DNA of 54,854 nucleotides from Tannerella sp. (lineage in GTDB: Bacteria > Bacteroidota > Bacteroidia > Bacteroidales > Tannerellaceae), in NCBI GenBank assembly GCA_031272155.1, contig JAISUI010000108.1, positions 1 through 54,854 on the forward strand, given 5' to 3'. The notes under the pieces were generated by a model. It made no database searches and was not told the DNA's origin. It saw only the letters and a list, made by a program, of their open reading frames with translations. Shown one piece after another: positions 33,422 to 43,641 of this stretch. Every line of letters starts with the position of its first letter. The first letter of the stretch is position 1. Position numbers and translations under genes: made by a program.

Positions 33422-33778
33422 TCATTTAGCCACCAGCACTACCCCGCTTATAATCAGGAACACCCCGATCCAGCGGGAAATGGGAATTGCCTCGTGAAAC
33501 ACATAAATGGAAGCCAGCATCCCGAAGATATAACTGATACTAATCATCGGATAGGCTGCCGAGAAGTCAAAGTGTTTCAGGATATAAAACCAGATCAGCG
33601 AGCCTGCAACCATGGATATTCCCGAAGCGGACAAAGGCCAGTTCCAGAATATATCTTCCTTGATGAACTGCCAGGCAAAGCGGGGTTTGTGCATCCTCGC
33701 CATGGCGAATTTGAGAAATATCTGTCCGCTTACGAGGAACAGGGACTGGACGGTGGAAAGCATCAGGAGTTTGAACAT
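33422..33778 (-). CDS. Small EamA/SMR-like transporter of the ketosynthase cluster
   Basis: This 118-residue protein has four predicted membrane helices, about half of a full EamA/DMT transporter and close in size to SMR or ArnE/ArnF flippase subunits. GQIFLKFAMAR near residue 20, SGISMVAGSLIWFYILKHFDFS and SAAYPMISISYIFGM are the family-like segments, and the last helix ends GVVLVAK. It may work as a homodimer. It overlaps the chain-length-factor gene by 16 bases and is the last gene of the cluster. I infer that it flips or exports the cluster product or a lipid-linked intermediate. Confidence 0.75.
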   Translation of the reverse strand: MFKLLMLSTVQSLFLVSGQIFLKFAMARMHKPRFAWQFIKEDIFWNWPLSASGISMVAGSLIWFYILKHFDFSAAYPMISISYIFGMLASIYVFHEAIPISRWIGVFLIISGVVLVAK

Positions 33779-34824
33779 TGCGACAGAAGTATAAAAGTGT
33801 GAGACTTGTTGTTATGGTGATTATAAAACAAAATGCGCTTCACGGGACGAACGGTCTCGCTCCCGTTCGTCAGCAGATGCGCCGGAATTCGTCCATTGCG
33901 CAGACAGACAGCAGCAGCATACACGCCAAGTGCGGAAGCCGTAAACGACTGCCCGAAAAGATGTTTGTACTGGACGACAGGACAGTCGGCCAACAGATGC
34001 GCAATGGTCTCATGATAAGGCGCATCGTTTGCCGGATTATGGTCTATGCCAACCATCACGGCGTCAATATCGGTTATGGAACAGCCGGCCTGCGCAAGCA
34101 ACCCGTTCAGCGCTGCCTGCATTCGATTGGGCGTAGGACGATACATCGTTTCAATGCCATTGATTTCGCACATCGTCCGCTCGTCACGTTCTGCACAAAG
34201 CGCCATACTTACAGCAACTTCGGATGCAAAACACCACTGCTTGGGCGTGACATCGGCGCCATAGTCCGTAAAATTCCACAACCCTGTGCGCGAAAGAAAC
34301 ACATGATAGTCGGACGTCAATTCGTCATAGCCGCCGACTAAGGCCGTCCGTATCCCGTGTTGCCGGAACTGCAGAAAGGCGTCAGACAAGGCATGGTCGA
34401 ACGCTACGCCGCGATGCACATAGGTGTTGTTGTAGCCATGGCACTTCAAATCAATGGCAATCAGGGAACTGATGATATTGTGAGTGGACTGCATGAAAAA
34501 GGTGGGCGGGAGGCACTGTTCTCCATTTTCCTTGATGGCATAAAGAAATTTTTCTGTATTTTCAATACATCCCAGCCCTGTGCCGCTGATGATAGCGTCG
34601 GGCATGGCAATATGCGCATCACTAAGCGCTATCCGTGCGGTTATTGTAGCTCTTTTCAACAGATTACACATCCTGCGCGAGAGGAGTGGCGACAAGTATT
34701 CCGAAAATTTCGGGTCGTTTGACATCACAAGCCTTTCGTTGTGCATGACAGGCCGATCCCACCAATCGTCGCAGAGCGGCTGCTGGGCGGATATGTGTGT
34801 TGCAGATTGAATATAGACAGCCAT
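33763..34824 (-). CDS. Ketosynthase-like chain-length factor (no active-site Cys)
   Basis: This 353-residue protein has the thiolase fold of a beta-ketoacyl synthase. The nucleophile region reads TYVHRGVAFDHALSD near residues 134-148, with no Cys. The first His motif is replaced by GIDHNPAND, while the KHLFGQSFTASA segment remains. Such proteins act as the KS-beta or chain-length factor of type II systems, pairing with an active ketosynthase. The partner is probably the gene immediately upstream, with a 6-base gap. In aryl-polyene systems the equivalent is ApeC. It could set the length of the product chain. Confidence 0.8.
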   Translation of the reverse strand: MAVYIQSATHISAQQPLCDDWWDRPVMHNERLVMSNDPKFSEYLSPLLSRRMCNLLKRATITARIALSDAHIAMPDAIISGTGLGCIENTEKFLYAIKENGEQCLPPTFFMQSTHNIISSLIAIDLKCHGYNNTYVHRGVAFDHALSDAFLQFRQHGIRTALVGGYDELTSDYHVFLSRTGLWNFTDYGADVTPKQWCFASEVAVSMALCAERDERTMCEINGIETMYRPTPNRMQAALNGLLAQAGCSITDIDAVMVGIDHNPANDAPYHETIAHLLADCPVVQYKHLFGQSFTASALGVYAAAVCLRNGRIPAHLLTNGSETVRPVKRILFYNHHNNKSHTFILLSQCSNS

Positions 34825-34830
34825 TTCCGT

Positions 34831-36030
34831 TTATATTTGAGATAAGACAATAGCCGACGTGTTTCCTCCGAAGCCAAAGGCATTGGAAAGAATGTGACGG
34901 ACAGGCCGTAGCGGCGTCGGGTTGGTGACAGGCGAAAAGGAATGTTCTTCTATCCGGTTACGGAAATTCGCCTGCACCGGCAATACGCCGTCACGCATAA
35001 TTAGCAGCGAGATAACGGCTTCAATGCCGCCTGCTGCGCTGGTCGTATGCCCGATATAGCACTTGACGGACGAAACGGGCGGTATATTGTCGCCAAAAAG
35101 GCGCATGATCGCGATGCCTTCAGTGAGATCATTGTTAGGCGTGCCTGTACCGTGCGCATTGAGATAGTCAATGTCTGCAGGTGTCAATCCCGCCCGTTCG
35201 ATAGCTCCCTTCATGGCTAAGTAAGCGCCTTCGCCCTCAGGCGACGAAGCCGTCTGATGATAGGCGTCGCAGGCATTGCAGTAGCCGGTTACTCTGCCGA
35301 TAGGCGTCACACCTCTCCGTTGAACGCTGCCGGCCGATTCCATGACGATATAACCTGCGCCTTCACCCAAATTGATGCCTGCACGGTCGCGGTCGAACGG
35401 TTTGCATATCTCTGTATCTAATATTTTCAGCGTATTGAACCCGTTGATATGATAGCGAGAAAGACATTCGCAACCACCGGCGACGACGATGTCGGCATGG
35501 CCTTCGAGAATCAGGTCGGCGCCCGTCATGATGGCGTTGGCCGACGATGAGCAGGCCGTCACAATCGTTGAAACCCGCCGAAACCCACCGAAAAAATCAG
35601 CAATCTGTTCCGTACACGCTCCGCAGTCAATCAGGCGAACATAGTCATTTTTCGTATCGGTATAAAGGAAATCATCGTACATGATTTCTACCTTATCCAT
35701 TCCCCCGACAGTGATGCCGGAAAGAAACGTCAGGTTTCGTGCATCTTCACTGTTCAATTGCGCTTGCTGCATGGCTTCGTCCACCGCCGGAATAGCAAGC
35801 AGCGAGGATCGGATGTATGCCTCTTCCGGTGGAATACGGAGCAACGCTTTCATCTCAACATCGCTATAACCCACTTCCCCGGAGGGCAGATCACGGTGCA
35901 CGGTCTGTACATAGCGAACAGACCCCAATCCCGATTGCTGTTTCTTCAGGGCTTCCCATGTCGTTTCCTTGCCTATACCAAGGGCGGAAACCATACCTGC
36001 ACCGGTGATATATACCTCCTTCCCGTTCAT
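34831..36030 (-). CDS. Beta-ketoacyl-ACP synthase, FabF-like (KS-alpha)
   Basis: This 399-residue condensing enzyme has the complete catalytic triad: C160 in TACSSSANAI, H293 in LNAHGTGTPNND and H328 in YIGHTTSAAG. It elongates an acyl chain on ACP with malonyl units. It lies between an ACP gene and the chain-length factor, suggesting that it forms a KS-alpha/beta pair. It is cytoplasmic. The gene is distinct from the primary fabF, since three such synthases occur in this one cluster. Confidence 0.88.
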   Translation of the reverse strand: MNGKEVYITGAGMVSALGIGKETTWEALKKQQSGLGSVRYVQTVHRDLPSGEVGYSDVEMKALLRIPPEEAYIRSSLLAIPAVDEAMQQAQLNSEDARNLTFLSGITVGGMDKVEIMYDDFLYTDTKNDYVRLIDCGACTEQIADFFGGFRRVSTIVTACSSSANAIMTGADLILEGHADIVVAGGCECLSRYHINGFNTLKILDTEICKPFDRDRAGINLGEGAGYIVMESAGSVQRRGVTPIGRVTGYCNACDAYHQTASSPEGEGAYLAMKGAIERAGLTPADIDYLNAHGTGTPNNDLTEGIAIMRLFGDNIPPVSSVKCYIGHTTSAAGGIEAVISLLIMRDGVLPVQANFRNRIEEHSFSPVTNPTPLRPVRHILSNAFGFGGNTSAIVLSQI

Positions 36031-36053
36031 TCTATATTAATGTATAGCAACTT

Positions 36054-36311
36054 TTATTTGGTTCGGTTTGCGACAATATATTCGGCCATCGTGCGGATGG
36101 AACGGAAAATCGCCTTCCCTTCGTTCGGGTCTTTCAGTTTGATGCCGTAATTTTTTTCCAGCAACACAATCAGTTCAAGCGCATCAATGGAATCAAGTCC
36201 CAATCCTTCGCCAAACAGTTCGCTGTCGTCGGAAATGTCGTCCGGCGTCATTCCCTCAAGGTTCAACACTTTGATAATTTCTTGTTTCAGTTCTACTATT
36301 AAATCGTCCAT
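36054..36311 (-). CDS. Acyl carrier protein
   Basis: This 85-residue acidic protein has the carrier fold. The attachment Ser for phosphopantetheine is S41 in GLGLDSIDALEL. It is of normal length. It lies between a half-length ketosynthase-like gene and the KS-alpha gene and is one of two ACPs in the cluster. It is not the housekeeping AcpP, which usually lies beside fabF and rnc. Confidence 0.9.
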   Translation of the reverse strand: MDDLIVELKQEIIKVLNLEGMTPDDISDDSELFGEGLGLDSIDALELIVLLEKNYGIKLKDPNEGKAIFRSIRTMAEYIVANRTK

Positions 36312-36329
36312 ATTTTATTTATTAAATTA

Positions 36330-36953
36330 TTATTCGCTGTAAAGATGATTCAGATGGCTGTATGTCAATAATATATCTTTGTTTTCGCCTGCTACGCAAA
36401 GCATCATCAGCACATCCGCCTCGCCGCCGGAAACTTCTATCCAACCGACCAGCGCCTGTTTCATTCCGGCCGCAAAGATACTGTTTTGAATGATTTCTAC
36501 CATATTTTCTGCCTGAAAACGTGGCAAAACATAAAAAGAAGTCTCTCCGTGAATCTTGTGCCGAATAGCAATTTCGCCCGTTACAATGTTTGGCAGTGTA
36601 TAGACAAATATCGCCGGACTGGGGAAATAATTTTCCTGATCGCGGATAGTTTCGTAATAGGCGTTGTCGGCTATGAGCGACGAAGCGCTGTTGAAAAGGA
36701 TCACGCCCGTATCTTCCTTGGGCTGTTCACGGTCGCAATCGCCGAACAACATTTCTGCAGCCAGGAAACCGGCTTTAGACAGGGTGTCCATCTTGAAAAA
36801 CTTACGGTAGTCGGGATCGAGTTTTTCGTAAAGCGCCAGCAGCAAATTTTCCACATGACCCGGTTTTTCCGAAAAAGCAAAGATATCTTCCCCATCCCGT
36901 CGGACATAATCGTTACGAATCCGCACATACTGTTTGATATAAATTTTCTCCAT
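36330..36953 (-). CDS. Half-length ketosynthase-like protein without catalytic residues
   Basis: This 207-residue protein starts at the ATG at 36953; a longer in-frame opening would overlap the neighbouring gene heavily. The segments LFNSASSLIADNAYY and FVYTLPNIVTGEIAIRH, and a final GWIEVSGGEADVLMMLCV, resemble the first half of a ketosynthase fold, yet there is no active-site Cys or His pair. It is too short for a full condensing enzyme. It could be a structural partner or an ACP-docking protein. Similar short 3-oxoacyl-synthase-like proteins accompany polyene and fatty-acid-like clusters in Bacteroidetes; this recollection needs a database search. Confidence 0.65.
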   Translation of the reverse strand: MEKIYIKQYVRIRNDYVRRDGEDIFAFSEKPGHVENLLLALYEKLDPDYRKFFKMDTLSKAGFLAAEMLFGDCDREQPKEDTGVILFNSASSLIADNAYYETIRDQENYFPSPAIFVYTLPNIVTGEIAIRHKIHGETSFYVLPRFQAENMVEIIQNSIFAAGMKQALVGWIEVSGGEADVLMMLCVAGENKDILLTYSHLNHLYSE

Positions 36954-36963
36954 TGCCTGTCTT

Positions 36964-38121
36964 TTATGAAAGTGAATACAAAATGGAGGCATTGCATCCG
37001 CCGAAACCGGAGAGCATATTGACGCACCGCTTGCGCGTTGTTCCGGTACATTTATCAGCGACTCGAATGGGATGCGTAACGCCGGATGTTTCAAATCCAT
37101 ACGTTTTCAGCACAACGCCTTCCCGCAACGCATGAGTAGCAATGATGCTTTCCAGCACGCCAGCGCAACCCAGCGTGTGGCCGAAATAACCTTTGAGGCT
37201 ATTCACCGGCACTTGGTTCAATCCGGCTCGTGTTAAAGCCACCGCTTCCATCTCGTCATTATAGATCGAGGCTGTCCCGTGCGCATTTATAAAGGCCAGT
37301 TCGTCGGCCGATATGCCTTCAAGCGTTTTCTGCAGAGCCAGGAAAGCGCCTTCACCTGTACGCGACGGTCCGGAGATATGGTTAGCATCGTTGCGGATAG
37401 CGCCGGCGCTCAGGACGATTTCACCGTCACGCGGCCGGGGTTCATTCGTCATGATGATGGTAGCGGCTGCTTCACCGATGTTCAGGCCATTGCGTCCGGC
37501 ATCGAAGGGTTTGCAAATTTCTGCGGAAAGCGCCTTGAATGACTGAAATCCGGAGATGATAAACCGCGAAAGCGTATCCACTCCAACAACAATTACGCAG
37601 TCATACAATTCGGCATCAAGGGCGCGTTTGGCCGTCAGCAAGGCGGTTGCGCCGGAAATGCAAGCGTTGGAAACGACCCGTGGCGTGTTGTTGTTGCCGA
37701 AAAATCCGGCAATTATTTCAGCCGAACGCCAGAGATAAATTCGCTCTTTTTCATACTCTTTCGCTTCCTCTGCGTCTAACAGGAAAATATTTCCCTTAGT
37801 CGTGGACAGAATAAACAACACGCCGGGATCAGATGCATCTATGCACGTGTTTTCCAACGCATTTGCCACCGACACGATGGCGGCTTTTTCCAGTTTGGTA
37901 TAACGGTTGTCTAAACGGAACCATTCGGGAGGAGGAAGCAGTTTATAAAAAGCGTTTTCCAGCAATATTCCGTCAATAACGGAAGCGACAAACGGTTCCG
38001 GCAATCCGAAAAGCCCCTCATAACGGGTCAGTCCACTGATGCCTTGCTTCACCTTACTGAAGTTCTCCAATGTTGTCATTCCTAAGGCAGACAGGATATT
38101 ATCGCTTACAATCGTCGTCAT
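36964..38121 (-). CDS. Beta-ketoacyl-ACP synthase, divergent
   Basis: This 385-residue protein starts at the ATG at 38121 (MTTIVSDNIL). The catalytic residues are all present: C154 in VSNACISGATA, H281 in INAHGTASIYND and H315 in GYFGHTLGCAG. Its sequence is distant from the other two active synthases in the block; for example, it has NACISG where FabF enzymes usually have TACAS/TACSS. It therefore probably handles a different substrate, perhaps the starter unit. Its start overlaps the thioesterase stop by 4 bases. Confidence 0.85.
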   Translation of the reverse strand: MTTIVSDNILSALGMTTLENFSKVKQGISGLTRYEGLFGLPEPFVASVIDGILLENAFYKLLPPPEWFRLDNRYTKLEKAAIVSVANALENTCIDASDPGVLFILSTTKGNIFLLDAEEAKEYEKERIYLWRSAEIIAGFFGNNNTPRVVSNACISGATALLTAKRALDAELYDCVIVVGVDTLSRFIISGFQSFKALSAEICKPFDAGRNGLNIGEAAATIIMTNEPRPRDGEIVLSAGAIRNDANHISGPSRTGEGAFLALQKTLEGISADELAFINAHGTASIYNDEMEAVALTRAGLNQVPVNSLKGYFGHTLGCAGVLESIIATHALREGVVLKTYGFETSGVTHPIRVADKCTGTTRKRCVNMLSGFGGCNASILYSLS

Positions 38122-38552
38122 AACAAATGATATTTTTTCTTCCAATTTTCGTAAAACGGCGGGTTGTTCCACACCAGCTGAAATTCCTTATCTAAGAAAA
38201 CCTGTGTGGAAGAACCCGTTGCAATCAGGCTATCGTCTTCCGGCAATCGGATTTCATAATCAAAGATGATTTTGGCGGACGGCACGTTCCGATAGGTGAT
38301 GTCCACACGCGCATGTTGCCTGTAAAGCAATGGTTTGCAGTACCTGAAATTCAGTTCCACTAACGGCGCATAATAGCCATTTTCAATATAACTGAGGTAA
38401 CTCAGTCCGTATTCTTTCCCGAAAGCCTCCCGTGCATCTTCAAAATAAAGCGCATAAGAGCCATGCCATACAATGTTCATCGAGTCCACTTCGCTGAACC
38501 TGACGTCAATTTCTTTTGACGTCTTCAACAGGATATCATTATTTATTTTCAT
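38118..38552 (-). CDS. Acyl-CoA/ACP thioesterase, 4HBT hotdog fold
   Basis: This 144-residue single hotdog protein matches the YbgC/4-hydroxybenzoyl-CoA thioesterase group: VRFSEVDSMNIVWHGSY with catalytic Asp23 and His30, followed by YALYFEDAREAF. It would release or transfer the acyl chain from ACP. Aryl-polyene clusters carry a comparable thioesterase (ApeK). It overlaps the next gene by 4 bases and the preceding dehydratase-like gene by 14. Confidence 0.85.
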   Translation of the reverse strand: MKINNDILLKTSKEIDVRFSEVDSMNIVWHGSYALYFEDAREAFGKEYGLSYLSYIENGYYAPLVELNFRYCKPLLYRQHARVDITYRNVPSAKIIFDYEIRLPEDDSLIATGSSTQVFLDKEFQLVWNNPPFYENWKKKYHLL

Positions 38553-38988
38553 AGTCCTGACTGTGCATATCCGTTAAAAATATTTTCATATCACAGGCGG
38601 CGATCAACTCGCCTCCGATTTCAACTTTTGTTTCAACTAATGATGTAGAAAATACATCTTCGCGAATGATGACCGTTGTTTCCAACTGTTCGCCGACGAG
38701 AGGATTCCGGAAAATCTCCATGTGCTTAATCATCCCTACAAACCCGATTTTGATGTTCCCGTCCCGATGCGCTTCTGTCTTTTCCTCATATCCCATCCGT
38801 GCGGCGCACGTCTGGGCGATGTTTTCTATCAGCCCCGTTTCTTCCATGCGCCCATTGGTGCAGAAGGGGCTGCCTTCCCTGACCATATAAACTGTCTTCC
38901 CTCCGCCCCGCGAGTAGTGCGTCAGCCTGTCCACCAGGATAAACGGCGGACGTTGCGGTAACAGTTCAGTAATAGATATATCTTTCAT
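38539..38988 (-). CDS. FabZ/ApeP-like hotdog dehydratase, catalytic His replaced
   Basis: This 149-residue protein opens with ITELLPQRPPFILVDRL, which aligns with the FabZ motif LPHR-PF-LVD, except that the catalytic His is Gln12. The opposing helix keeps ENIAQT, with Glu55 and Gln59. It should act on 3-hydroxyacyl-ACP intermediates, but the missing His makes true dehydratase activity uncertain. If it is inactive, the cluster must borrow FabZ for double-bond formation. It lies between the radical SAM and thioesterase genes. Confidence 0.75.
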   Translation of the reverse strand: MKDISITELLPQRPPFILVDRLTHYSRGGGKTVYMVREGSPFCTNGRMEETGLIENIAQTCAARMGYEEKTEAHRDGNIKIGFVGMIKHMEIFRNPLVGEQLETTVIIREDVFSTSLVETKVEIGGELIAACDMKIFLTDMHSQDYENK

Positions 38989-38998
38989 CTTTTTATCT

Positions 38999-40363
38999 TT
39001 ATGTCAATCTCAAGTATTCCCACAGGGGGCCTTTTCTGCCACGCTTACGCAGTACTTCCATCATCGGCGACTGCTCGTCGTCGGGAAAAATCCACCGCTG
39101 TCCCGTTGCTCTCGCTCGAGGCCTTATGGTCTCAGCGTCAATGGCTTTTGATACATAATAGACCGGACTGATCAGTTCGGCGGGCGACTGGATAAGTCCT
39201 TCTTCCAGCGCAATATTGCACAACTTCGTCTGGGGATAAATTCTCATTCCGACATAGGGGAAAAAGAGGGTCGTCCCGAGTTGTCCGGAACGGCTGAAGG
39301 TTTCGTTCAGTGTTTCGTCCGTTTCTCCATATCCGCCAAGAATCAGGAAATGAGCATAGAAAATACCCATTTTTTCGCAAAGCAGGCTTTGTTGCCGAAT
39401 GTCGTCAAAGCGGAATTGTTTGTTGTAGTTCTCCAATTGCTTGTCGGACAGCGAATCTGTTCCAAACTCAACATGTGTCAGTCCGGACTGCCGGTAGAGC
39501 GCCCATTCTTCGGGCGTAAGGCCGGAGGGCGAAAAATACGCACCCCACCGGATATCCACCTTGCTCTCAATCAACCGACGGGCTAATTCTTCGTTGTATT
39601 CCCTGTGGATATTGAAAAGAGAATCTGTAAAGAAAAGATAAGAAATCCCTTTGGAAAAATAAAGTTCTTCAATGTTGTGCACAACCATTTTTGCATCAAG
39701 CGTACGTACTTTTCGCCCGTCAATCAGCGGATAACTGCAATAAATACACCGGTACGGACAACCGCGTTTGGTCTGGATATTCAACATACCGCCTTTTTTC
39801 CAGTAATATTCTACCCAGTCGCTTTCAACATGCAGTTCAGGGCTGGAGATGAAACAGTTATGCTCATTTATGCGGATCGAACCGTCAGGCAAACGATAAA
39901 CTAATCCTTCGATGTCTGCCGGAGAAACTCTGTTTTCCAGGCATTTAATTAACTGCTCAAGAGTTGCCTCGCCTTCGCCTTTGACGGCATAATCGGGACA
40001 AAGTTCATTAAATATCAGTTCGGGGAAAACGGCAAAACCCGCGCCACCCAATACAATGGGCGCTCGCGTATTTTCCCGTGCAATACGCATGATTTCCCTG
40101 TAGTGGGAGATAAATATATTTTCCGCATACAAATGCGTTGAATCGTCAAAATTACGCAACGAGATCCCAACAAGCATAAAGTTTTTGTTGCGGAGAAATT
40201 CGGCAAAAGTCTCATAGTTCTCCAGATTGAAATCAAATACTTCAATCTCATAATCAGGAAAATGAACTGACAAATAACTTACTAAATAGGAAATCCCCAG
40301 CGGATAAACCGGATAGGGGATCCGGTAGTTGTTGGCCGAAATCAATGCGATAGACTTTTTCAT
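38999..40363 (-). CDS. B12-binding-type radical SAM protein
   Basis: This 454-residue protein starts at the ATG at 40363. Residues 1 to about 140 form a cobalamin-binding-like Rossmann domain (YPLGISYLVSYL, IVLGGAGF, YAVKGEGEATLE); the classical DxHxxG His motif is not evident. The radical SAM barrel follows, with the 4Fe-4S cysteines C202, C206 and C209 in RGCPYRCIYC. Such enzymes methylate unactivated carbons or rearrange carbon skeletons. Within a fatty-acid-like cluster it may methylate or cyclise the chain. Its neighbours are the acyltransferase and the hotdog genes. The substrate is unknown. Confidence 0.85.
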   Translation of the reverse strand: MKKSIALISANNYRIPYPVYPLGISYLVSYLSVHFPDYEIEVFDFNLENYETFAEFLRNKNFMLVGISLRNFDDSTHLYAENIFISHYREIMRIARENTRAPIVLGGAGFAVFPELIFNELCPDYAVKGEGEATLEQLIKCLENRVSPADIEGLVYRLPDGSIRINEHNCFISSPELHVESDWVEYYWKKGGMLNIQTKRGCPYRCIYCSYPLIDGRKVRTLDAKMVVHNIEELYFSKGISYLFFTDSLFNIHREYNEELARRLIESKVDIRWGAYFSPSGLTPEEWALYRQSGLTHVEFGTDSLSDKQLENYNKQFRFDDIRQQSLLCEKMGIFYAHFLILGGYGETDETLNETFSRSGQLGTTLFFPYVGMRIYPQTKLCNIALEEGLIQSPAELISPVYYVSKAIDAETIRPRARATGQRWIFPDDEQSPMMEVLRKRGRKGPLWEYLRLT

Positions 40364-40370
40364 AGGCGAA

Positions 40371-41264
40371 TCAGTTCCAAAAATCATAAAAGTTAAACCA
40401 TTGTTCGGGATACATCTTTACTATCCGCTCCAGTTCCCTGACATACGTTCTGAGCATTTCGCCAACTTTTGCCCGCATCGTCCCTTCGCTGTCCGCTAAC
40501 GATATGGGCACCACGTGAATGCGATAGAGCGATGCGGATATTTTCAGAACGAAAAGCGCCATTACCGGCACCTTCATCTGTAGCGCCAAGGCAAATGCAC
40601 CGACAGGAAAATCGGCCTTCCCTCGCAGGAAGTCACATTCAATACTCTTGTTGCTGCCAAAACTCCGGTCGCATGGCATGCTGACCACTTCGCCCTTTGA
40701 CAGGGCGTCGTGGATGCTGAAAAGGTGGGACATGTCGTCCGTTACGGGTACGAGCCGTATGTTATTGCGGCTCAGGACACGCGAACGATTCCGCTGTACT
40801 TCTTTGGCTTCATTCCCGTATATCAAACAGTTAATAGTTTTTTTCGTCTGTTTCAGCAGGTAACCGCATAATTCCGGATTGCCTACGTGCGAAGTAGCAA
40901 TAATACAGCCTTGCGGATCGTCAAGCATCGGAAGGAATAAGTGATTATCCGGATTTTCTACACGAAAAATGTCCTGTTGTCCGGCATAGACAGCAAAACG
41001 ATCTAATAACGCCTGGCCAAACAGGAAATGGTTACGGTAAGTCTTCAGGAACGACCGGAAGGGCGAATATCCATGCTGTTTGCGGAAATAGCGGTATATC
41101 GCCAGATAGCCTTTTCGCCGGAAAAGCATGTAGAAGGGAACAATAAAAACCAGCAGGGCGTATCCCACCCGCACGTTTACGATCGTAAACGTGAGTTTCA
41201 ATGCTTTTTGTCCAATCGTATGCCCGCCCGTTACGCCTTCCCAGTCTTTTGCTTTTTTTACCAT
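40371..41264 (-). CDS. LpxL/HtrB-like lysophospholipid acyltransferase
   Basis: This 297-residue protein has a membrane segment near residues 30-48 and the acyltransferase motif H-x4-E at H126/E131 in TSHVGNPEL. CDRSFG at about residue 200 is the second family block. LpxL-type enzymes move an acyl chain from ACP to a lipid or sugar acceptor at the inner membrane. Here it may transfer the finished chain from the cluster ACP to a membrane lipid, as proposed for ApeL/ApeB-type proteins. It lies 6 bases downstream of the second ACP gene. Confidence 0.82.
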   Translation of the reverse strand: MVKKAKDWEGVTGGHTIGQKALKLTFTIVNVRVGYALLVFIVPFYMLFRRKGYLAIYRYFRKQHGYSPFRSFLKTYRNHFLFGQALLDRFAVYAGQQDIFRVENPDNHLFLPMLDDPQGCIIATSHVGNPELCGYLLKQTKKTINCLIYGNEAKEVQRNRSRVLSRNNIRLVPVTDDMSHLFSIHDALSKGEVVSMPCDRSFGSNKSIECDFLRGKADFPVGAFALALQMKVPVMALFVLKISASLYRIHVVPISLADSEGTMRAKVGEMLRTYVRELERIVKMYPEQWFNFYDFWN

Positions 41265-41270
41265 AAGTCG

Positions 41271-41519
41271 TTATGCATTGACTTTGGCGTCAATGTAGTT
41301 GTAAAAATCTTTGACGGTAAGCACGTTCCCCATTTCTTCCGGTTTTATTTTAAACCCAAACGTTCTTTCCACTACTACGACAATATCAACAAAATCCAGA
41401 CTGTCAAGCCCTAAGTCTTCCCTTAGCCTTGCTTCTTCCGTAATTTTATCCGTTTCGATTTCCATATCTTCCGTAAGGAAATGATTGACGAGCGATTCTA
41501 TTTCTCTTTTTTCCATCAT
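41271..41519 (-). CDS. Acyl carrier protein (second copy)
   Basis: This 82-residue protein has the phosphopantetheine Ser40 in DLGLDSLDFVDIVV. It differs clearly from the ACP at 36054-36311, notably in the residues after the Ser, so the two probably dock different partners. It is 4 bases downstream of a FabF-like ketosynthase. Confidence 0.9.
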   Translation of the reverse strand: MMEKREIESLVNHFLTEDMEIETDKITEEARLREDLGLDSLDFVDIVVVVERTFGFKIKPEEMGNVLTVKDFYNYIDAKVNA

Positions 41520-41523
41520 TATT

Positions 41524-42750
41524 TTATTTATAATATTTTCCTAAAATTAATGTACTGTTTGTCCCTCCAAAACCAAAGGAATTGGAGAGCGCTGTTTCAA
41601 TCTGCTGTTCCTTCGTCTGTTGCAGGATGTGCAACGAACGGGAATATTCGTCAGGCGTTTCAAAATTAATATTTGGCGCCATGAATCCGTGCTGCATCAT
41701 CAATAACGAATAGACGGCTTCGCTTGCTCCGGCCATCCAGCACTCGTGTCCTGTCATGGATTTGGTCGAACTGACAGGCGTCCGGAGTGCACCAAAGAGT
41801 TTGCCAAGCGCAATTGCCTCGCTTGTATCCCCTTGCGGGGTAGAGGTGGCGTGGGCATTGATGTAATCAATATCGCCTGCTTTCCGTCCGGCGTCAGTCA
41901 GTGCGCGTTGCATCGCAATGAGCGAGCCTTCGTCGCTGGCTTGCGACACCGGACTACCGTTGGACGAAAAACCATAACCCAACACTTCGCCATAAATGGT
42001 GGCGCCACGTTGTATTGCATGTTCTTCGGCTTCTATGATCAGGCTGGCCGCGCCGCCGCTTGGCACTAACCCGTCGCGTCCGGCGTCGAACGGACGGGAT
42101 GCCTTTTCCGGGGCATTTACCCGCTTTGAGAAAACATTCAATCCGTCAAATCCAGCCATGGAATAGACATTCGCCTCCTGTGCGCCACCACATAAAATTA
42201 TATCCTGCAATCCGTTGCGAACAAACATAAAACCTAACCCAATGGCATGTGCACCGCTTGCACATGCGGCGCTTATCGTCATATTGACACCACGCAGTTT
42301 AAAAATGGCCGCCAGATTCATGGACACGGTTGAAGTCATGGATTGGAAAACGCCGCCGGAACCGATGAGGTACGAGTCTTTTTTGTTGCGCATGATCTCA
42401 TGGGCGTCAATAACGCCTTTGGCCGACGAATCGTTTCCGTAGAGGATGCCTATCTCGTGCCGGGCAGTATAATCCCCATCAATACCAGCTGTTTTCATAG
42501 CTTCCAGCGTCGCTACGTAAGCATATTCTCCTTCTTCGGCAAGGGTAGCGCGCAACCGCCGGTCGAGCAAGTCCTTCAATGCAGGCCGCTCAACGATGCC
42601 TGTCAGCGGCGAATGGTAACCATAAGCCGTCCGCGCCGGATCTGTGCCAATCCCGGACTTTCCGCGATACAGCGAAGCGGCTGCTTCTTCCGTATTCTTG
42701 CCAATGCAGGAATAAATGCCGATTCCAGTGATAACAACGCGTCTTTTCAT
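41524..42750 (-). CDS. Beta-ketoacyl-ACP synthase, FabF/FabB-like
   Basis: This 408-residue enzyme is the most typical ketosynthase of the cluster. C163 lies in ISAACASGAHAIG, H300 in YINAHATSTPQGD and H335 in SMTGHECWMAG. The C terminus has SNSFGFGGTNSTLILG. It condenses malonyl-ACP with the growing chain. It is 15 bases downstream of the ketoreductase, and the second ACP follows. Confidence 0.9.
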   Translation of the reverse strand: MKRRVVITGIGIYSCIGKNTEEAAASLYRGKSGIGTDPARTAYGYHSPLTGIVERPALKDLLDRRLRATLAEEGEYAYVATLEAMKTAGIDGDYTARHEIGILYGNDSSAKGVIDAHEIMRNKKDSYLIGSGGVFQSMTSTVSMNLAAIFKLRGVNMTISAACASGAHAIGLGFMFVRNGLQDIILCGGAQEANVYSMAGFDGLNVFSKRVNAPEKASRPFDAGRDGLVPSGGAASLIIEAEEHAIQRGATIYGEVLGYGFSSNGSPVSQASDEGSLIAMQRALTDAGRKAGDIDYINAHATSTPQGDTSEAIALGKLFGALRTPVSSTKSMTGHECWMAGASEAVYSLLMMQHGFMAPNINFETPDEYSRSLHILQQTKEQQIETALSNSFGFGGTNSTLILGKYYK

Positions 42751-42765
42751 CTTCTGTTTTATTGC

Positions 42766-43494
42766 TCAGGAATAAATGCCTCCATTGATAGAAATGACCT
42801 CGCCGGTGATATAGGCTGCCGCTTCAGATGCCAGGAAACCGGCCAGCGCCGCCACTTCTTCGGGCTTTCCAAACCGTCCCAGCGGGATATTGGCCTTGAG
42901 CGACGCTTCATCCAAATCCTTCGTCATGTCTGTCGTAATGAAACCGGGTGCAATGGCATTAACCGTCACTTTGCGCGGAGCAACTTCCTGCGCCAGCGCT
43001 TTGGTAGCGCCAATGATCGCTGCCTTAGCCGCCGAATAATTCGTTTGTCCGGGCATCCCTTTCAACCCCGACAACGACACGATATTAATGATACGGCCAT
43101 CCCGTTTCATCAACATTCCTTTCAATACGCGGCGGGTGACAAAAAAGAAGCCATTCAGGCTCGTATTAATCACATCATACCACTGGGCGTCCTGCATAAA
43201 TATCATCATAGCGTCCATCCGGATGCCGGCATTATTTACCACTATCCCGATGAAATCGTCCGGATGCTGTTCACTCCAATCTTCCAACGCTTTATCCACC
43301 GACGCGCCGTCGGCTACGTCGAACGGCAACAATCCGGCCGTCCCACCTTGTTCCTCCACCAGCCGCTTTGTTTCCAAAGCGGCTGTCCTATTGGATAAAT
43401 AATTGATAAGCACAGGGATGCCCTTCCCGGCTAACTCTATGCAAACAGCCCGCCCGATACCGCGCGAACCTCCTGTTACTAATGCATATTTCAT
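42766..43494 (-). CDS. 3-oxoacyl-ACP reductase, FabG-like
   Basis: This 242-residue short-chain dehydrogenase starts at the ATG at 43494. TGGSRGIG (residues 8-15) binds NADPH, NNAG is at 87-90, and the catalytic S140, Y153 and K157 are in place. AITGEVISINGG-type sequence ends the protein. It reduces the ketoacyl-ACP formed by the synthases. It is the first gene of the leftward cluster, about 67 bases after a promoter box. It is the only reductase in the block; no enoyl reductase is present, consistent with an unsaturated product. Confidence 0.92.
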   Translation of the reverse strand: MKYALVTGGSRGIGRAVCIELAGKGIPVLINYLSNRTAALETKRLVEEQGGTAGLLPFDVADGASVDKALEDWSEQHPDDFIGIVVNNAGIRMDAMMIFMQDAQWYDVINTSLNGFFFVTRRVLKGMLMKRDGRIINIVSLSGLKGMPGQTNYSAAKAAIIGATKALAQEVAPRKVTVNAIAPGFITTDMTKDLDEASLKANIPLGRFGKPEEVAALAGFLASEAAAYITGEVISINGGIYS

Positions 43495-43560
43495 GAACTT
43501 GTTTTTATACCTTCCTTTTCCTGATTTCTGAACGGAAAAACAGACGTTATTTTTATGGCG

Positions 43561-43568
43561 CAAAAGTA
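43561..43568 (-). promoter_or_regulatory. -7 box for the ketosynthase cluster
   Basis: Minus-strand TACTTTTG, 66 bases upstream of the FabG-like start. No TTTG occurs about 20 nt further upstream. It is the only good promoter candidate for the whole 13-gene block. Confidence 0.5.
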
Positions 43569-43641
43569 AATAAAAAAAATGAATTATAAAAACAGGCAGC
43601 CATTCTGTTACGGGTCTGACTGTGCATCTGCCTGCATTTTT

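Follow-up and report, generated by a model that had tools for sequence, protein, structure and literature searches.

Gene content of the biosynthetic block

The DNA analysed here, referred to as the window, is a stretch of 54,854 nucleotides from Tannerella sp. (contig JAISUI010000108.1) and corresponds to contig 54 of an assembly of 133 contigs and 2.13 Mb that is 69.6% complete. It contains a block of 13 genes (33422-43494) centred on type II condensing enzymes and including a B12-binding radical S-adenosylmethionine (SAM) enzyme. A preliminary description of the window had reported a tightly packed leftward array, and this was borne out: all 13 genes lie on the minus strand, and neighbours are spaced by -55 to +23 bp. 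Judging from the translations of the open reading frames, its neighbours are a ComF-like gene and, at the opposite end, a gene resembling that for the exonuclease VII large subunit. The same gene order was found again in many Bacteroidales, and the array is therefore not a product of chance. Pfam and NCBIfam scans, which took in the block proteins except the second acyl carrier protein (ACP) and the ketosynthase (KS) KS3, supported the SMR/EamA, KS, ACP, 4HBT hotdog, FabZ-like hotdog, B12 radical SAM, LpxL-like acyltransferase and FabG-like reductase assignments.

The first block gene encodes a short-chain dehydrogenase/reductase-type ketoreductase (42766-43494; scanned as 42766-43503) that matches NCBIfam FlxB (NF053542) with 394 bits, above the cut-off of 340. 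Upstream of it, at 43555-43580, a TACTTTTG stretch is a possible match to the Bacteroidetes -7 promoter element. The reductase gene is followed by KS3 (41524-42750; PF00109), by ACP2 (41271-41519), recognised from a DSL serine, its alignment to other ACPs and same-place orthologues in relatives, and by an LpxL-like acyltransferase (40371-41264; PF03279, 56 bits). The radical SAM enzyme comes next (38999-40387; TIGR04072, 386 bits, cut-off 360), in a slot that holds a FlxJ-family gene in related operons. Downstream lie a FabZ-like hotdog dehydratase (38539-38988; a weak NCBIfam FabZ match of 31 bits, below the cut-off of 113), a 4HBT-type thioesterase (38118-38552; PF13279, 44 bits), KS2 (36964-38172), a half-length ketosynthase-like protein (36330-36953), ACP1 (36054-36311; PF00550, 40 bits, DSI serine), KS1 (34831-36030; PF00109 and PF02801), a chain-length-factor-like ketosynthase (33763-34824) and a small EamA/SMR membrane protein resembling ArnE/F (33422-33778; PF00892, 37.5 bits; ArnF, 57 bits, below the cut-off of 99).

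The three ketosynthases described earlier as active each carry a Cys-His-His triad (KS1, Cys160; KS2, Cys171; KS3, Cys163). The 353-aa chain-length-factor (CLF)-like protein lacks an equivalent active-site Cys and matches PF13723 and PF00109 below their cut-offs. KS1 and this Cys-less protein are fused in some relatives and presumably form a second KS/CLF pair. Among solved structures, the closest to KS2 are ApeO chains from complexes with ApeC (best PDB matches 7f28_B and 6qsp_A), which suggests an ApeO-like elongating ketosynthase, and KS3 is probably ApeR-like. The half-length protein matched no Pfam family, and a phmmer search of the PDB with it returned no match; a profile search yielded 6kxd_B (E 0.005). 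Its AlphaFold model (predicted local distance difference test score 84.7) best matches 6kxe_B (E 2e-6, template modelling [TM] score 0.56) and also matches the half-size ApeC chains 7f28_C and 6qsp_B (E 7e-5 and 8e-5; TM 0.47), in agreement with its earlier description as ketosynthase-like. With the corrected, likely start at 36953 the protein has 207 aa and does not overlap KS2. In several relatives it is fused to KS2 in proteins of 566-583 aa. Because of its KS-half fold and these fusions, it is likely the CLF partner of KS2, similar to ApeC. The idea of a pseudogene was set aside, since the protein is conserved across all 13 orthologues aligned (13 of 13) and is fused to KS2 elsewhere.

Starter and export genes of the genome and their synteny

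The preliminary description had proposed a pathway with an unknown starter and without the usual exporter, and had suggested looking for an ammonia lyase and an AMP ligase in the same genome. Both were found on contig 64, in a row of genes for FlxA tyrosine ammonia-lyase, a family-less 128-aa protein, FlxY ligase and a PlsC-like acyltransferase. FlxA (C64:6942-8486; NF053541, 848 bits, cut-off 700) is the sole PF00221 match of the genome. An identity as the histidine-utilisation enzyme HutH was rejected, since the lyase scores 435 bits against that family, below its cut-off of 539. FlxY (L079:8873-10174; NF053551, 702 bits, cut-off 520) was not among the three ligases retrieved by a PF00501 search of the genome and was found by reading contig 64. 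Contig 82 encodes LolA2 (189 bits, cut-off 125), LolB2 (61.3 bits against a cut-off of 60, hence marginal), a hotdog-GT2 fusion and a 1176-aa frame (L092:262-3792) that combines an MMPL transporter (28.7 against a cut-off of 20.5) with a PlsC-like acyltransferase and has a C-terminal part without a family match. Thus, five genes exceed NCBIfam equivalog cut-offs for flexirubin genes: FlxB in the window, and FlxA, FlxY, LolA2 and LolB2 elsewhere. The term flexirubin refers here to the polyene half only. A further small operon on contig 93 (L088) encodes a PlsC-like acyltransferase, a KS with 59% identity to KS3, an ACP and a dehydratase.

Of the 41 genomes of the genus, 39 carry the KS/CLF block and 39 have an exporter match of at least 45% identity; an exporter tally of 41 of 41 includes G304 and G312, where the match is a paralogue with about 29% identity. 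Adjacency was counted in 80 named loci, the best 80 of 479 confirmed. Among these, 45 were testable upstream (reductase present, more than 1.7 kb of upstream sequence) and eight downstream (CLF present, more than 3.5 kb of downstream sequence). Outside Tannerella, 32 of 36 testable loci have the lyase gene immediately upstream of the reductase gene, 27 of them with 1-186 bp between the two and five with an overlap, and an MMPL gene lies downstream of the block in seven of eight. Lyase and MMPL gene both stand at the block in L110, L115 (titled Bacteroides sp.), L117, L120 (Marinilabiliaceae), L122 (uncultured Odoribacter), L126 and L131 (Rikenellaceae). Seven loci of the genus (L256, L257, L258, L259, L354, L362 and L363), all of them FlxJ-type, have the block and the exporter in one contiguous stretch. 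The absence of starter and export genes is true of the locus and not of the pathway, because such genes are present in the same genome and adjoin the block in other Bacteroidales. Adjacency of this kind is what the preliminary description had itself named as grounds for giving up its reading. In many clusters (L042, L046, L048, L049, L129, L132, L134, L135 and others), a DarH-family BtrH-like acyltransferase (NF053550, 464 bits, cut-off 300, scored for L042) and an ABC transporter pair lie between the dehydratase and the thioesterase.

The scattering of pathway genes in the genus is real and not merely an effect of assembly breaks, since the pieces are also dispersed in the one-contig genome G297. 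Here, the MMPL gene lies at 0.17 Mb and FlxA, the 128-aa protein, FlxY and the PlsC-like acyltransferase at 0.83 Mb. The reductase, ACP, acyltransferase, FlxJ, dehydratase, thioesterase, KS2, half-length KS and ACP genes follow at 0.90 Mb, and KS1, CLF and SMR at 2.01 Mb. In the window, too, the genes that flank the block at either end are unrelated to it.

The variable slot and the B12 radical SAM enzyme

In many related operons, the slot between acyltransferase and dehydratase is occupied by a FlxJ-family methyltransferase (594-607 bits, cut-off 560) instead of the radical SAM enzyme; an alternative arrangement, with FlxJ one or two genes upstream, was seen in L337, L341-L344 and L347. Among the 41 genomes of the genus, 12 encode the radical enzyme, 26 encode FlxJ, none encodes both and three encode neither (G307, G327 and G334). 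The probability of this exclusion by chance would be 6e-8 if the genomes were independent, which they are not. Across 118 block loci, near-duplicates included, the radical enzyme was present in 61, FlxJ in 55, both in none and neither in two. A search of the window's own genome (69.6% complete) for the FlxJ-family methyltransferase gave no match at E 1e-20.

To follow the slot through the phylogeny of the block, the analysis started from 115 loci that carry one but not both of the enzymes, together with two or more of acyltransferase, KS1 and KS2; 87 remained after removal of 28 near-duplicates. On the FastTree tree of these three proteins the slot state changes nine times, six of them forced by well-supported (starred) branches, compared with a mean of 27.8 after shuffling. 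An IQ-TREE tree of 30 rows shows four changes and places the window's block as sister to FlxJ blocks. On this tree, a single clade of the five radical-enzyme blocks of the genus was rejected by the approximately unbiased test (p-AU 5.4e-6), a result tempered by the fact that the group was chosen after the first tree had been seen. The dehydratase of the window shares 54-69% identity with those of FlxJ-type members of the genus, compared with 47-58% for most radical-type ones. The nearest relatives of the radical SAM gene itself share 65-72% identity and come from records titled Tannerella sp. The acyltransferase and the radical enzyme are fused in L046, L140, L168 and L172, of which L046 and L140 are probably one locus. 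In L062, L058/L105, L107-L112, L121 and L124, the radical SAM gene is found away from any KS block, either by itself or accompanied by dehydratase and thioesterase only.

The best solved match of the radical enzyme by sequence (E 3e-32), profile and fold (TM 0.83) is TsrM, which methylates C2 of tryptophan. The CxxxCxxC motif is invariant in 19 of 19 sequences of alignment A1. Arg78 of the window enzyme, a position numbered manually along the alignment, aligns with TsrM Arg69 and is likewise invariant (19/19 in A1; 116/116 with near-duplicate rows kept). In TsrM, Arg69 leaves the lower face of cobalamin free, so that a weak carbon nucleophile can attack the methyl more readily, and replacement of Arg69 by lysine abolishes tryptophan methylation (PMC8992657). 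A sibling radical SAM subfamily (L068-L074; approximately 28-31% identity) keeps the TsrM-type Arg and, apart from scattered matches, does not stand beside block genes.

Proposed pathway, alternative readings and known systems

Gene content, family membership, synteny in relatives, partner genes in the genome and the slot exchange were observed directly, and from these we infer both the chemical steps and the joint action of the scattered loci. The block is, with high confidence, of flexirubin type. The fuller reading, that it is the chain-building core of a scattered flexirubin-type aryl-polyene pathway in which the radical enzyme stands in for FlxJ, is also probable. FlxA would deaminate tyrosine to 4-coumarate, and FlxY would activate it. 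The two ACPs, three ketosynthases, two CLF-like partners, FlxB reductase and hotdog dehydratase would then build an aryl polyene on 4-coumarate. Attachment of this polyene to a lipid would fall to the GT2 protein and to the LpxL-like and PlsC-like acyltransferases, and the MMPL protein would move it outward with LolA2 and LolB2. The earlier proposal that this type II block forms a polyene linked to a membrane lipid or pigment, and has no enoyl reductase, is supported. Taking FlxJ's place, the radical enzyme may put a methionine-derived methyl onto the aryl ring by a TsrM-like transfer from methylcobalamin. We regard ring methylation as the best guess, at roughly even chances, because of the FlxJ exchange, the likeness to TsrM including Arg78, the phenol-ring carbon beside the hydroxyl, which by our own reasoning would be a carbon nucleophile of the sort that the TsrM mechanism requires, and the origin of the flexirubin ring methyl from methionine (PMC3992019). 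Somewhat more tentatively, TIGR04072 enzymes in general, which until now owe their name to ladderane clusters alone, could be B12-dependent aromatic-ring C-methyltransferases, TsrM-like or perhaps a radical variant, that displaced FlxJ several times at one slot in flexirubin-type pathways of anaerobic Bacteroidales; a related anammox enzyme might then methylate rather than build a ladder.

Several observations weigh against this reading. The assembly, in which contigs 54, 64 and 82 stand apart, is incomplete, and the lyase adjoins the block in none of nine testable Tannerella-titled loci. The dialkylresorcinol genes darA and darB were not recognised in the fetched flanks, where no search aimed at them was made. 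In an order-wide sample of 295 genomes, with 29 radical enzymes above cut-off and 43 FlxJ (21 above cut-off), the overlap was one genome against 4.2 expected (P 0.053), which is not significant alone because most genomes have neither enzyme; the single genome with both, G283, has its FlxJ-like gene outside any KS cluster. Within the genus, the lyase was found in four of 12 radical-enzyme genomes compared with 17 of 26 FlxJ genomes (Fisher P 0.087). The eight lyase-less radical-enzyme genomes are 55-93% complete, and loss from the assemblies alone is therefore unlikely to explain all eight; these relatives may import 4-coumarate or some other aryl acid, or rely on a different starter. The earlier view of an unknown starter is accordingly not supported for the window genome and retains some force for its relatives. 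As to the enzyme, Arg78 is also present in eight of 11 sibling enzymes not tied to the slot. Among NCBIfam models, BzaD (183 bits) outscores the tryptophan methylase (131 bits), both far below cut-off, and AprD4, which does not methylate, is a further fold match (TM 0.70). The column of the TsrM cluster ligand Glu273, which keeps SAM off the iron-sulfur cluster, holds V, I or L here, and a radical mechanism is therefore possible.

Part of this evidence could be read in another way, namely that the pathway is the same and the radical enzyme methylates or rearranges the chain, the slot exchange marking two product types. We consider this a real but less than even possibility. B12 radical SAM enzymes are chemically varied, with AprD4 as a close fold match, Glu273 is not conserved, and the rarity of the lyase alongside the radical enzyme looks as if the head group differed; repeated exchange at one slot and the invariant Arg78 better suit the same kind of reaction. 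The missing lyase in eight of 12 radical-enzyme genomes would also fit a lipid cluster that works on its own from a non-aryl starter, with a second, unrelated pathway formed by the flexirubin genes elsewhere, and the contig 93 operon, with its KS3-like ketosynthase and its own ACP and dehydratase, could be cited in favour. This is unlikely: FlxB lies inside the block, which outside the genus adjoins FlxA and the MMPL set and is contiguous with C82-type genes in several of the genus genomes that carry it, and the contig 93 operon has no adjoining chain-length factor or reductase. The family name of TIGR04072, rSAM_ladder_B12, raises the thought of a ladderane-like or otherwise cyclised lipid. 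Membership is above the cut-off, and the B12 radical SAM protein Kuste2803, a possible member of the family, is named in an account of Kuenenia fatty-acid clusters (Rattray et al. 2009, PMC2649909). Nevertheless, such a product is very improbable, as no phytoene-desaturase-like gene was seen among the scanned block proteins, flexirubin genes accompany the block, operons that are otherwise alike have FlxJ in place of the enzyme, and Desulfotalea, which has syntenic clusters, yielded no ladderane according to the same account.

With the flexirubin-type pathway as the preferred reading, what had been taken for an orphan lipid cluster is explained and linked to flexirubin-type pigments. To our knowledge, such pigments of anaerobic gut and oral Bacteroidales have received hardly any chemical study. 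The uncharacterised B12 radical SAM family gains a first concrete candidate reaction, and the FlxJ exchange points to the product to seek. Two unrelated SAM enzymes swap at one operon slot, with a residue-level hint to the chemistry of TIGR04072. The pathway kind itself is already known; the B12 radical SAM enzyme in the FlxJ slot is new, and we found no account of it in flexirubin clusters in a literature search that was thin on subscription journals.

Tannerella is listed among genera with aryl polyene clusters in PMC8549736. The celluxanthene cluster of anaerobes was considered and does not match, since it is described as a type I polyketide synthase (PMC12144888). Like the block, the Kuenenia ladderane-candidate clusters (PMC2649909) combine a B12 radical SAM enzyme with several neighbouring KS paralogues and ACPs, but the block differs in lacking phytoene-desaturase-like genes among its scanned proteins, in its flexirubin genes and in product class. 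TsrM (6wte/6wtf; PMC8992657) shares the B12 and radical SAM domains, CxxxCxxC and the lower-axial Arg and is the best fold match, but its identity is about 23% and its Glu273 is not conserved here.

The ape clusters of E. coli, Xenorhabdus and Acinetobacter (PMC8253772, PMC8358021) resemble the proposed pathway in having a KS with a half-size CLF (ApeO-ApeC), a second KS, two ACPs, a ketoreductase, dehydratases and a thioesterase, together with LolA/LolB-like proteins, an MMPL/RND transporter, acyltransferases and a ring methylase (ApeB). They form one contiguous cluster and use 4-hydroxybenzoate, whereas the Tannerella genome has a tyrosine lyase, two CLF-like proteins and the B12 radical SAM enzyme. 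The flxA-flxY cluster of Chitinophaga pinensis (PMC3992019) shares FlxA, FlxY, FlxB, five KS-type proteins, dehydratases, a thioesterase, an acyltransferase, LolA, a glycosyltransferase and an exporter, and also a polysaccharide deacetylase that is found in many relatives of the block. Compared with that cluster, the genes described here are spread over at least three contigs, and the FlxJ-family methyltransferase gives way to a B12 radical SAM enzyme.

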